Assembly: GCF_038592905.1 (NCBI RefSeq)
Contig: NZ_CP151943.1
Span: forward strand, 2,926,501-2,990,500
Direction: 5' to 3'
Length of the DNA stretch: 64,000 bases
Origin: Neobacillus sp. FSL H8-0543
GTDB taxonomy: Bacteria > Bacillota > Bacilli > Bacillales > Cytobacillaceae
The translations under genes were made by a program, and so were the position numbers. Of the stretch, positions 55,276 through 59,680 are shown one piece after another. Numbering within the stretch: position 1 is the first letter of the stretch; each line of letters starts with the position of its first letter. The notes below the pieces were generated by a model. The model was given only the letters and a program-made list of their open reading frames with translations, was not told the DNA's origin and searched no databases.

Positions 55276-55315
55276 AAAAAAACATCTCTCAAAAGCTTGA
55301 GGGATGTTTTTTTCG
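55276..55315. terminator. Bidirectional intrinsic terminator
   Basis: AAAAAAACATCTCTCAA (55276-55292) and TTGAGGGATGTTTTTTT (55297-55313), one G-U pair. It ends the peroxiredoxin gene on the minus strand. Confidence 0.92.
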
Positions 55316-55320
55316 GACAG

Positions 55321-55794
55321 CTATTGTTTTGTTAACTTCTCAAGTTCTGTAAAAACCGCCTCATAATCCTCTTTCTTATCCGCCTTGAATGAAGTATTTA
55401 TGTAACTTATCACACCCTCTTTATTGACAACAAAGACAGAACGGATGGCAACTTCGCCTTTTTCGTTAAACACCTTATAGTCTTTAACGGTTTGTCTATG
55501 CCAATCTGAAACTAAAGGATAAGGCAATTTCCCCATACTTGCAGCAAAGACGTTGTGCGAATGGATATGATCGACACTAACTCCCAGCACTTCGGCATCT
55601 AATGCTTGAAATCTTTTGTAATCCTCTTTCCAAGAGGATATTTCTTTGATTCAGCCAGGTGTAAAGTCCATACCATAAAAAGCGAGGACTACATTCTTTT
55701 GCCCTTTATAATCGGACAATGATAGCTTTTCCTTTGTTGTTGCAGGTAATGAAAAATCAGGTGCAACATCCCCGATACTCAAAGACGCTTCCAA
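55321..55794 (-). CDS. Selenocysteine-containing peroxiredoxin (in-frame TGA at catalytic position)
   Basis: 157 residues if TGA 55653-55651 is read as selenocysteine (residue 48). TTG start at 55794, 7 nt after AAAGGAGG. N-terminus ASLSIGDVAPDFSLPA and NVVLAFYGMDFTPG-U-IKEISSW place the TGA exactly where AhpC/Bcp-type peroxiredoxins have the peroxidatic Cys (FTPGC, with the conserved Thr three before it). The frame continues intact to IRSVFVVNKEGVISYI with the active-site Arg and a normal C-terminus. The protein has no cysteine at all, so the TGA residue would be the sole redox centre. A SECIS-like hairpin follows the TGA. A decayed Cys codon (TGC to TGA) is the alternative. Confidence 0.85.
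55621..55653 (-). promoter_or_regulatory. Candidate bacterial SECIS element with its UGA
   Basis: On the minus strand: TGA, 11 nt, then ATCCTCTT - GGA - AAGAGGAT (55639-55621), a perfect 8-bp stem with a 3-nt loop. UGA to apical loop is 19 nt. The known bacterial SECIS rule asks for 16-37 nt, a loop of 3-14 nt and a G among the first two loop bases; all are met. No bulged U like that of E. coli fdhF is evident. Confidence 0.75.
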
Positions 55795-55960
55795 GTTCAA
55801 ACCTCCTTTAGAAGATTGCTTACCTCGATATTTTCTCCATTATTAGATGAAATTAGACTTTTATGGATTAAATTGACATGGATCAATGCAAATACAGGTT
55901 AATACTATGCGCATGTCACAAATTGTTCGGAATCTAGTGAAAATAGTTCTCATTTACATA

Positions 55961-56062: not shown

Positions 56063-57013
56063 ATGAAAAAACGATACTTACTACTTGGGTTGCTTGTCTT
56101 GTCTGCTACTTCATTGTTTGTAGGCGTCAGCAGCATATCACCTTTAGACTTATTTGATTTCCAATCAGAAGAAACGCAAATTTTCCTAATCAGCAGGCTT
56201 CCAAGGCTAGTCGCTATTTTACTGGCAGGAGCAGGGATGAGTATCGCTGGTTTGATTATGCAGCAGCTTAGCAGAAACAAATTTGTCTCACCGACGACGG
56301 CTGGAACATTAGATGCTACACGTTTAGGGATCCTCGTTTCAATGCTATTGTTTGCAAATGCTTCGATGCTAGAGAAAATGGCGGTTGCCTTTGTGTTTGC
56401 GCTTGCTGGAACATTTTTGTTTATGAAAATTCTTGACCGAATCAAATTTAAAGATGCAATCTTCATTCCGCTTGTAGGTCTTATGTTTGGTAATATTTTG
56501 TCCTCGGTTACAACTTTTTTTGCTTATCGTGCCGATGTCATTCAAAATATGTCCGCCTGGCTGCAAGGTGATTTTTCAATGATAATGAAGGGAAGGTATG
56601 AACTCCTTTATATAAGTGTTCCGATATTAATCATCTCTTATTTCTATGCTAACCGTTTTACAGTGGCTGGAATGGGAGAGGACTTTTCAAGAAATCTTGG
56701 GCTGGCCTACCGACGTGTCGTGAATATTGGTCTAATCTTAGTAGCGCTTGTTACGACAACGGTTGTATTAACAGTAGGGATTATCCCATTTCTTGGCTTA
56801 ATCATTCCAAACATTATTTCGATTTTTAAAGGGGACCATTTACAAAAGACATTACCGCATACTGCGCTTTTAGGTGCTATATTCCTTCTGATTTGCGATA
56901 TTTTAGGCCGGGTGCTTATTTTTCCATATGAGATTTCGATCAGTCTCATGGTGGGTGTAATCGGAAGCGGAATTTTCTTATACTTACTTTTCAGGAGGAA
57001 GGCATATGCGTAA
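56063..57013 (+). CDS. yclN: Siderophore ABC permease subunit (YclN/FpbN-like)
   Basis: 316 residues, ATG after TTGGGGTAAGCG. FecCD-family permease with eight to ten helices; RLPRLVAILLAGAGMSIAGL (about 49-68, split) is the family start motif and GIIPFLGLIIPNI (about 241-253) contains the coupling region. Size equals B. subtilis YclN (316), part of the petrobactin uptake system. The next permease gene overlaps by 8 bp. Behind a Fur box, so iron-regulated. Confidence 0.93.
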   Translation: MKKRYLLLGLLVLSATSLFVGVSSISPLDLFDFQSEETQIFLISRLPRLVAILLAGAGMSIAGLIMQQLSRNKFVSPTTAGTLDATRLGILVSMLLFANASMLEKMAVAFVFALAGTFLFMKILDRIKFKDAIFIPLVGLMFGNILSSVTTFFAYRADVIQNMSAWLQGDFSMIMKGRYELLYISVPILIISYFYANRFTVAGMGEDFSRNLGLAYRRVVNIGLILVALVTTTVVLTVGIIPFLGLIIPNIISIFKGDHLQKTLPHTALLGAIFLLICDILGRVLIFPYEISISLMVGVIGSGIFLYLLFRRKAYA

Positions 57014-57956
57014 CACGATAAAAATAGCCGTCCTCACCTTGATCGCTGTGGGAGCTTGCGCCCTCTACTTATTTCATGATTTAAACGGAAGCTTTGATTA
57101 TGCTCTGCCAAAACGAGCAATTAAAGTTCTTGCCATGGTATTGACGGGTGTTACAATCGCCTATGCCACCGTCGTATTCCAAACGATAACGCATAATCGA
57201 ATTCTAACACCAAGTATTATGGGATTGGATTCCCTTTACCTGCTATTACAAACGGTTATTATTTTCTTTTTAGGCTCTGGTCACATGCTTATTGTGAATA
57301 AACAGGTGAACTTTTTACTATCTGTTGTAGTCATGATTGTATTTGCCCTTATCTTATACAAATTCTTATTTAAAAAAGGCAATCAACCGATTTACTTTTT
57401 ATTGTTAGTCGGGATTATTGTTGGAACGTTTTTCTCAAGCATTTCAACCTTTTTCCAAGTCCTGATTGACCCGAATGAGTTTCAGGTTGTCCAAGACCGT
57501 ATGTTTGCCAGTTTTAATAATATCAACTCTGATTTAGTCTGGCTGGCAATTGCCATTGTCCTTCTTGTAATGATTTATGCCATGCGCTTTTTAAAGTACT
57601 TGGATGTTTTATCACTAGGTCGAGAGATGGCTATTAACCTAGGTGTTCCTTATGACACGATTGTGAAACAAGTCCTTATTATTGTCGCAATCTTCATTTC
57701 AATCTCAACAGCACTTGTCGGACCGATAACCTTTTTTGGTTTAATTGTAGCCAATCTGTCGTATCAATTTTTCAACACATACAAACATAAGACGCTGATA
57801 ACTGGGGCAATTCTGATGAGTATCATCGCCCTTGTTGGGGGACAATGGGTGGTCGAACGAATTTTCACGTTCTCGACAACGCTTAGTGTCATAATCAATT
57901 TTATCGGTGGTGTCTATTTCATCTACTTACTGTTAAAGGAGAGGAAGTCAGCATGA
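57006..57956 (+). CDS. yclO: Siderophore ABC permease subunit (YclO/FpbO-like)
   Basis: 316 residues; RBS AGGAGGAAGGC in the end of yclN. Second FecCD permease that pairs with YclN. Family marks: KRAIKVLAMVLTGVTIAYATVVFQTITHNRILTPSIMG (split, about 36-74) and LVGPITFFGLIVANLSY (about 238-254). Nine to ten helices. Overlaps the ATPase gene by 4 bp (ATGA). Confidence 0.93.
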   Translation: MRNTIKIAVLTLIAVGACALYLFHDLNGSFDYALPKRAIKVLAMVLTGVTIAYATVVFQTITHNRILTPSIMGLDSLYLLLQTVIIFFLGSGHMLIVNKQVNFLLSVVVMIVFALILYKFLFKKGNQPIYFLLLVGIIVGTFFSSISTFFQVLIDPNEFQVVQDRMFASFNNINSDLVWLAIAIVLLVMIYAMRFLKYLDVLSLGREMAINLGVPYDTIVKQVLIIVAIFISISTALVGPITFFGLIVANLSYQFFNTYKHKTLITGAILMSIIALVGGQWVVERIFTFSTTLSVIINFIGGVYFIYLLLKERKSA

Positions 57957-58714
57957 TTTCAGTCCAAGCGCTATCAAAATTTTATGGAAAAAAAACCGTT
58001 GTTAAGGATGTAACGATTGATATCCAGCCTCGGAAGATCACGAGTTTTATCGGACCAAACGGTGCTGGTAAATCGACGTTGCTTTCGATGGTAAGTCGTC
58101 TGCTTGATGCAGACACAGGGGAGGTACTCATTGACAAAACCGATGTGAAAAAGATGAAATCAAATGAGTTTGCGAAACGAATCTCAATTTTGAAGCAGTC
58201 CAATTACATGGATGTCCGTCTGTCCATCCGCGAGCTTGTTTCTTTCGGACGGTTTCCTTACTCGAAGGGGCGGTTAACCGAGGAGGACGAACGGATTGTC
58301 AATCAATCGCTGGAGTACATGCACTTAACCGAAATGCAGGATAGTTTTTTAGATGAGTTGTCAGGCGGACAGCGCCAGCGTGCATTTATTGCGATGGTTA
58401 TTGCTCAGGACACTGAGTATATATTGCTCGATGAACCATTGAATAATTTGGATATGAAGCACTCTGTCCAAATTATGAAAATACTACGCCGTCTTGTTGA
58501 TGAGCTAGGTAAAACAGTTGTCATTGTGCTTCACGATATAAATTTTGCATCTGTTTACTCTGATCGTATTGTTGCGATGAAGGATGGAATGGTTGTCAAA
58601 GATGGACCTACCGAAGAAATTATTCAATCAGATTCGCTAAAAGAAATTTATGATATGGATATTCCGATCCAGCAAATGGATGGCTGCCGTATCTGTGTAT
58701 ATTTTAGTTCATAA
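57953..58714 (+). CDS. yclP: Siderophore ABC ATPase (YclP/FpbP-like)
   Basis: 253 residues. Walker A GPNGAGKST (about 35-43), Q-loop in ISILKQ, signature LSGGQRQR (about 137-144), Walker B YILLDEPLNNLD and H-loop VLHDINFA. The type is the FepC/FhuC importer ATPase. Powers the YclN-YclO pore. RBS AAAGGAGAGGAAG lies in the end of yclO. Confidence 0.95.
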   Translation: MISVQALSKFYGKKTVVKDVTIDIQPRKITSFIGPNGAGKSTLLSMVSRLLDADTGEVLIDKTDVKKMKSNEFAKRISILKQSNYMDVRLSIRELVSFGRFPYSKGRLTEEDERIVNQSLEYMHLTEMQDSFLDELSGGQRQRAFIAMVIAQDTEYILLDEPLNNLDMKHSVQIMKILRRLVDELGKTVVIVLHDINFASVYSDRIVAMKDGMVVKDGPTEEIIQSDSLKEIYDMDIPIQQMDGCRICVYFSS

Positions 58715-58732
58715 TAAAGGAGAGATAATCAT

Positions 58733-59680
58733 ATGAAAAAGTGGAGCTTTCTAGCAGTTATTTTATCGGTATTTCTTGTATTAGCCGCTTGTGGAGCAAA
58801 GGAAGAAGAAAAGGCTTCTGGCACTAAAAGTGATGGGGAAGCAAAGGAAATGACAGTTAAGCATAAACATGGTGAGGCAGTTATAAAAGCAAATCCGGAA
58901 AAAATAGTTGTGTTTGACTTCGGAATCCTGGATACATTAGATGAACTTGGGATTGAGGTAACAGGTGTACCGCAAGCATCCATTCCAGCTTATTTGGAAA
59001 AATATGCAGACAAAAAATACACAAATGTTGGTAGTTTGAAAGAGCCTGATTTTGAAGCGATTCATGCAATGCAGCCGGATGTTATCTTTATTTCAACACG
59101 TCAAGCAGAATTATACGATCAATTTGAGGAGATTGCACCTACTGTATACATTGAACTGGACTATACAAAGTACATGACTTCTTTTGAAGAAAATATGAAC
59201 TTAATCGGTGATATCTTTGGTAAAAAGGCTGAAGTCACTACAGCTTTAGAGGATATCGAAGCGAATGTCGAGGAGTTAAATAAGAAGGCGTCTGCACTTA
59301 ACAAAAAAGGCTTAATCGTTTTGGCGAATGAAGGAAAAGTAAGTGCCTATGGACCAAGCTCCCGCTTCGGTATCATTCATGATGTATTTGGCTTTGGTGC
59401 TGCGGATGAGAAGATTGAAGTATCTACACATGGTCAAAGTATTTCATTCGAATATATTATGGAAACCAATCCAGACGTATTATTTGTTATTGACCGTAAC
59501 CAGGCGGTTGGCGGGGAAAGCGGCGCTGAGGAAACGATTGAAAATGAGTTAGTTCAAAAAACGACCGCATATAAGGAAGACAAGATAATCTACTTAAATC
59601 CTGACTCTTGGTATCTAAGTGGTGGCGGTTTAAAATCTGTGAAAATTATGGCTGAAGAAATTGAAGCATCAATAGAATAG
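58733..59680 (+). CDS. yclQ: Siderophore-binding lipoprotein (YclQ/FpbQ-like)
   Basis: 315 residues, ATG after AAAGGAGAGATAATCAT. Lipobox VLAACG (Cys about 21). Periplasmic-binding fold of helical-backbone class III: KIVVFDFGILDTLDELGIEVTG (split, about 60-82), MQPDVIFISTRQAELYDQF and the C-terminal DSWYLSGGGLKSVKIMAEEI. The DFGILDTLDELG part resembles catecholate binders such as YclQ for petrobactin. Fourth gene of the Fur-controlled operon. Confidence 0.94.
   Translation: MKKWSFLAVILSVFLVLAACGAKEEEKASGTKSDGEAKEMTVKHKHGEAVIKANPEKIVVFDFGILDTLDELGIEVTGVPQASIPAYLEKYADKKYTNVGSLKEPDFEAIHAMQPDVIFISTRQAELYDQFEEIAPTVYIELDYTKYMTSFEENMNLIGDIFGKKAEVTTALEDIEANVEELNKKASALNKKGLIVLANEGKVSAYGPSSRFGIIHDVFGFGAADEKIEVSTHGQSISFEYIMETNPDVLFVIDRNQAVGGESGAEETIENELVQKTTAYKEDKIIYLNPDSWYLSGGGLKSVKIMAEEIEASIE

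Follow-up and report, generated by a model that had tools for sequence, protein, structure and literature searches.

Peroxiredoxins of the mycobacterial AhpE type (1-Cys; PDB 4x0x/1xxu) function without an internal resolving cysteine, and the donor of actinobacterial AhpE is the mycothiol/mycoredoxin pair, while Bacillaceae use bacillithiol. For insertion of selenocysteine (Sec, U) in bacteria, the SECIS hairpin is located 16-37 nt after UGA and contains G among the first two bases of its loop. Peroxiredoxins with Sec in the active site have been catalogued. In such surveys, a Sec-containing peroxiredoxin (Prx) with the site TxxU is listed (PMC9312934), the peroxiredoxin site is given as T/SxxU/C and three selenoproteins of three families are counted in Bacillales (PMC1794560), and 91 Sec-Prx are recorded in 78 organisms (PMC5029168). 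A literature search covering the accessible portions of the candidate papers yielded no description of a TGA-containing peroxiredoxin branch in Bacillaceae, and some members of such a branch may have been counted before, in the surveys PMC1794560 and PMC5029168.

The gene described here lies on the minus strand (55794-55321) of a 64,000-nt stretch (the window) of the Neobacillus sp. FSL H8-0543 genome (contig NZ_CP151943.1). It consists of one frame of 157 codons and a stop, running from a TTG start (55794-55792) to TAG (55323-55321), with TGA at 55653-55651 as the sole internal stop codon. The Shine-Dalgarno sequence AAAGGAGG (55802..55809, minus strand) precedes the start at a spacing of 7 nt, and SD-like stretches are also found upstream of the starts in relatives. 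If the TGA is read as Sec, the product has 157 residues and no Cys, the predicted Sec being residue 48 in the peroxidatic position of the motif F-T-P-G-U-I-K-E. The coordinates, the frame interrupted by this TGA alone, its location in place of the peroxidatic Cys and the lack of Cys, of a second stop and of a frameshift had all been put forward in a preliminary description of this DNA, and all hold. The product mass of about 17.5 kDa given there has to be corrected to about 17.8 kDa (calculated). As also anticipated, automatic annotation puts a truncated 89-aa ORF in place of the full gene; the ORF list of a table-11 gene caller gives only 55321..55590 (minus strand). We conclude that the locus encodes a peroxiredoxin in a single frame in which UGA very likely specifies Sec, with Sec-48 as the predicted peroxidatic residue.

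The product matches the AhpC-TSA domain (PF00578) over residues 7-131 with 126.3 bits against a cut-off of 26 (E 8.5e-37). The site motif is T45-P-G-U48, and both Thr45 and Arg118 are present in all 66 TGA rows of our alignment. Among the 50 structure matches listed for an AF2 model of the protein (pLDDT 91.4), the best in both directions were AhpE (4x0x, TM 0.88/0.89), which is of near-equal length, and Bcp4 (3hjp, 0.89/0.88); ranked by E-value, 2-Cys peroxiredoxins came first among the matches listed. The best sequence match in PDB was the peroxiredoxin 2ywn (E 1.8e-23), with 4x0x at E 2.8e-19. Unlike AhpE, which uses Cys, the protein here is predicted to use Sec. None of the NCBIfam models reaches its own cut-off with this peroxiredoxin. 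The best matching one, PrxU (NF040737, named thioredoxin-dependent peroxiredoxin), belongs to the same superfamily, but its 80.3 bits are far below the curated cut-off of 270, and the model has 233 positions compared with 157 aa here. Similarly, Prx-SUH (NF045827, a thiol peroxidase model) was matched at E 1.4e-10, but with 40.9 bits against a cut-off of 298.

The known Sec peroxiredoxins (COG1225, TxxU) share the AhpC/TSA domain and the T-x-x-U site with our protein. In contrast to them, it belongs to a clade of Bacillaceae and close families that is mostly Cys-free and whose NCBI-named matches are truncated: the close homologues (P0024-P0031 and similar) are 'redoxin' fragments of 87-114 aa which start past the TGA. 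Given these starts and the low NCBIfam scores, the TGA proteins apparently represent a new, unannotated branch of the known Sec peroxiredoxins (TxxU). The host genome additionally encodes TGA-free relatives (e.g. C1:3522903).

Both selenium insertion and peroxidase activity are what we infer from sequence, and the following mechanism can be proposed. SelB together with Sec-tRNA(Sec) would bind a hairpin with the loop GGA, and Sec would be inserted at the UGA. The selenolate of Sec-48 would attack the peroxide and be converted to selenenic acid, and the oxidised enzyme would be regenerated by an external thiol, because the protein contains no resolving Cys. As for the donor, bacillithiol with bacilliredoxin would be preferred since the host genome has bshC and genes for two YphP/YqiW bacilliredoxins, and the mycothiol/mycoredoxin system of AhpE offers a parallel; thioredoxin would be an alternative. 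Cys-free proteins make up 47 of the 66 TGA rows (our protein included), the other 19 containing one to three Cys. In 14 of the 66 rows, and also in P0039, a metagenomic relative with Cys at the TGA column, there is a Cys in the C-terminal helix (the column of our residue 151), from which we infer that Cys may have been lost secondarily in the Cys-free proteins. The clade of bacilli as a whole could be viewed as harbouring a Cys-free, one-selenium counterpart of AhpE, recharged by bacillithiol/bacilliredoxin, in which SECIS keeps a tryptophan (Trp55) that is lost on replacement of Sec by Cys; we advance this wider picture tentatively and give it somewhat less than an even chance.

The protein might also be a real selenoprotein that is linked to thioredoxin, or that serves as a sensor or chaperone, and not a bacillithiol-dependent peroxidase. 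We take this to be quite possible, if short of probable: several of the related NCBIfam models are named thioredoxin-dependent and the C-terminal-helix Cys of the 14 TGA rows fits such a role, whereas our protein and 46 of the 65 other TGA rows are Cys-free and so lack an internal resolving thiol, and the genes for bacillithiol and bacilliredoxin are encoded. A Cys-free Sec enzyme would provide a clean case for asking what reductant a lone selenol needs in a bacillithiol organism.

Judging from gene content, the host genome appears to decode UGA as Sec. The genes selA, selB, selC and selD, a search for which the preliminary description had proposed, were all found in it: selA scored 561 bits (cut-off 268), selB 339 (cut-off 242) and selD 405 (cut-off 125), and two tRNA-Sec genes, both with the anticodon TCA (ARAGORN), scored 63.5 and 59.7 bits against the Rfam cut-off of 47. 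The SelD gene itself contains one in-frame TGA (SSKAG-U-GCK), a SelW-like Rdx protein has another (C-M-Q-U), and in two formate-dehydrogenase-like ORFs, one above and one below the Fdh-alpha cut-off, TGA is located immediately 5' of HAPSVAGLA and HSSTVAGLA, respectively. Together with the peroxiredoxin, the predicted selenoproteins of the genome would thus number at least five.

Several further observations were made at these loci. In the formate-dehydrogenase-like ORFs (L189 and L192; C1:392160 and C1:2370663), the TGA stands at the usual Sec site, and GGTCT is found past it in both. Loci L079 and L017 (C1 near 5249233-5252543) represent a Sec cluster, in which selD with its own TGA is about 1 kb away from selA. 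The SelW-like Rdx gene sits between the two, divergent from selD, and carries a hairpin of 6 bp with a 3-nt loop which resembles that of the peroxiredoxin. The second tRNA-Sec copy (L019:8642-13777; C1 about 4786641-4791776) adjoins genes for a tyrosine integrase (PF00589), a DUF3987/helicase protein and a terminase small subunit; this arrangement is suggestive of the integration of a phage or phage satellite at selC.

If the TGA were a true stop, the locus would specify a 47-residue peptide and/or, by use of an internal start, a distinct protein of about 90-110 residues from the part past the TGA. Gene callers do give such a downstream piece, and the NCBI-named homologues (87-114 aa) are of that size. 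However, the internal start is not conserved (GTG here, other codons or positions in relatives), the Pfam domain covers both halves (residues 7-131), and the genome has Sec machinery and the gene a SECIS-type hairpin. This explanation therefore fails, and we regard it as very improbable.

The hairpin, ATCCTCTT-GGA-AAGAGGAT (55621..55639, minus strand; loop 55631-55629), starts 11 nt past the TGA, with 19 nt from the TGA to the loop GGA. This spacing and its agreement with the bacterial SECIS rule had been noted before and are confirmed. Folding of the TGA region (55660-55600), as had been suggested, gave an MFE of -13.6 kcal/mol but z of only -2.0 on this one sequence, and 6 of 200 shuffles were equally good; judged on its own sequence alone, the hairpin surpasses chance only modestly. 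Moreover, a 6-bp stem is expected from codon choice alone in about 5.6-7.6% of such genes, so that a single gene is weak proof and a set of 91 genes was needed. This set required TGA, an FTPG-like motif and a downstream Trp; TGA, Trp and the loop GG are thus invariant by construction, whereas the stem pairs are not. The filter was matched by 116 of 117 loci (L159 was missed), and 91 distinct genes were left after removal of duplicates.

Pairs 1-5 of the stem, G-U included, are formed in all 91 genes, and pair 6 in 90 of them. The remaining gene, that of the closest relative found (L021, same gene as L084), has a C-A mismatch at pair 6, and its MFE fold does not contain the hairpin. As for the perfect 8-bp hairpin of the preliminary description, it is present in the sequence itself, but the outer pairs 7 and 8 show no conservation among relatives, so the conserved stem has 6 bp (55637-55623) and not 8. 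The Ser codon in the stem is TCT in 88 of 91 genes, compared with 144 of the 801 Ser codons in the rest of these genes, and the Glu codon is GAG in 88 of 91, compared with 176 of 611 elsewhere. Loci L038 and L135 have TCC, AAG and GAA instead, and pairs 2 and 5 are preserved there via double (compensatory) changes; since the two probably represent one lineage, this covariation amounts to one event or a few. Taken comparatively, the data make a convincing case for a putative SECIS-type hairpin.

The loop GGA is encoded by TGG-A, i.e. by the codon of Trp55. In rows selected without a Trp requirement, all 66 TGA rows have Trp in this column and none of the 20 Cys rows does. Trp55 might be kept for the sake of the hairpin; alternatively, the reason may lie in the protein. 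The idea that the hairpin is a transcription terminator of the plus strand and not a SECIS element draws on a terminator scan, which labels it as terminator-like on that strand; yet it is situated within a conserved CDS, about 645 bp beyond the nearest plus-strand gene end, and keeps a fixed spacing after the TGA in 91 distinct genes, and we hold this to be highly unlikely.

Alternation of U and C at the Sec column, another check proposed at the outset, was indeed observed. P0039, 49-50% identical, has Cys at the TGA column, and in the 88-row tree it is placed within the TGA clade, on a fork shared with Alkalicoccus and FJAT-44742 (100/99), its placement within the fork being weak (83/2), its branch long and its record a single metagenomic protein. 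In a 29-row tree, monophyly of the TGA rows without P0039 was rejected (p-AU 0.011), the group having been picked after the first tree. In total, 20 Cys rows align at the Sec column; the 88-row tree used 16 Cys rows chosen from the 120 matches listed and excluded the frameshifted L143, the partial L114 and L153, in which no motif was recognised. The Cys form was found neither among 67 Bacillota loci nor among 32 order-panel genomes (see below). Read plainly, these data suggest that one lineage, that of P0039, swapped Sec for Cys and dropped the loop Trp. This nested Cys form would then provide a natural before/after pair for studies of Sec-to-Cys replacement.

Two other kinds of relatives were noticed. 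In metagenome proteins P0001-P0022, available as proteins only, Trp occupies the Sec position, which we attribute to translation with a table that reads TGA as Trp. A second TGA peroxiredoxin subfamily (L040-L043, DWTPV-U-GAQMPSYED) groups among Cys proteins (two members in the tree), and its TGA is probably an independent Sec site.

The distribution of the gene was followed in three collections. A first panel comprised 36 genomes of the genus, our own among them, and 24 of other families in the same order; the TGA gene was present in 20 of these 60 genomes, one copy (in G019) being frameshifted. All 20 were among the 50 genomes with selA and tRNA-Sec above cut-off, compared with none of the 10 without (Fisher p 0.023), where anticodons were verified in our own genome only and the cut-offs were also passed by 5 (tRNA-Sec) and 1 (selA) of 14 control genomes. 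The gene occurs in 19 of 36 genomes of the genus (one copy frameshifted), and this patchy distribution indicates that it is dispensable. Selenoproteins had been supposed to be rare in Bacillaceae; this fails for the genus, where selA and tRNA-Sec were found in 36 of 36 panel genomes. A search of named records gave 72 loci: 67 from Bacillota (Neobacillus, Mesobacillus, Cytobacillus, Evansella, Halalkalibacter, Pseudalkalibacillus, Rossellomorea, Alkalicoccus and others), two euryarchaeal with TGC at the site, two from Flavobacteriaceae with TGT, and L153 with no recognised motif. TGA was present in 67 of 67 Bacillota loci, and 66 had no further stop within the match; among them, frame damage alongside the TGA, which had been named as a sign of a pseudogene, was seen only in L143 (same gene as L039), which is frameshifted. 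Finally, an order panel of 397 genomes was searched with the Cys form P0039 as a query. The family was detected in 32 of them (E 1e-28 or better), with exactly one TGA each; 30 of these genes were retrieved as loci and TGA at the FTPG site was confirmed in 29.

Among 18 genus members (153 pairs), median dN/dS was 0.11 on the 5' side of the TGA and 0.057 on the 3' side, dS saturation leaving defined values in just 110 and 88 pairs, respectively; purifying selection is thereby indicated on both sides. Random decay had been judged unlikely at first sight, and this view is strengthened, since TGA and frame are conserved from genus to genus and dN/dS is low either side. That the gene is a pseudogene, its TGA being a nonsense mutation in a former Cys peroxiredoxin, would take a single base change from TGC or TGT and has one frameshifted relative (L143) in its favour, but is refuted by the same-codon TGA in 67 of 67 Bacillota loci (66 free of other stops in the match), by dN/dS far below 1 and by synonymous constraint within the hairpin, and can be set aside as most improbable. 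The original suggestion of a probable selenoprotein is thus supported by the Sec machinery, by the TGA conserved in the Bacillota loci and by the U/C alternation.

Since dozens of related bacilli retain this UGA, protein databases probably lack a widespread selenium enzyme. Many genera in Bacillaceae and close families carry the family but its NCBI-named entries among the matches are headless, so that selenium need and peroxide defence would be under-described in these bacteria. A single model or annotation rule could mend dozens of genomes.

Genomic context was compared by clustering ORFs of at least 90 aa in flanks of up to 6 kb (shorter at some loci) around 67 loci and the window. Leaving aside the gene's own downstream piece, which appeared in 16 loci, the commonest neighbours were divergent siderophore-type ABC genes, present in 14-15 of 68 loci. 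As even the top neighbour occurs in at most 15 of 68 loci, the context says little, and a conserved operon was rejected, no neighbour being widely conserved in these 68 loci. No consistent PerR or Fur box was found in the 68 upstream regions (up to 3 mismatches in 10 for PerR and in 8 for Fur), the best matches in our own upstream region having 3 mismatches, and a promoter scan was uninformative (three sigma-70-like matches, 3.1 expected). Just past the stop codon (55282-55307, minus strand), an inverted repeat with a T run behind it can be seen by eye; it is a possible terminator with one mismatch, and the terminator scan gave no call there. Upstream of the peroxiredoxin, the window contains divergent genes for FecCD-type permeases, an ABC ATPase and an SstD-like binding protein (56063-59680), i.e. 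for siderophore uptake.
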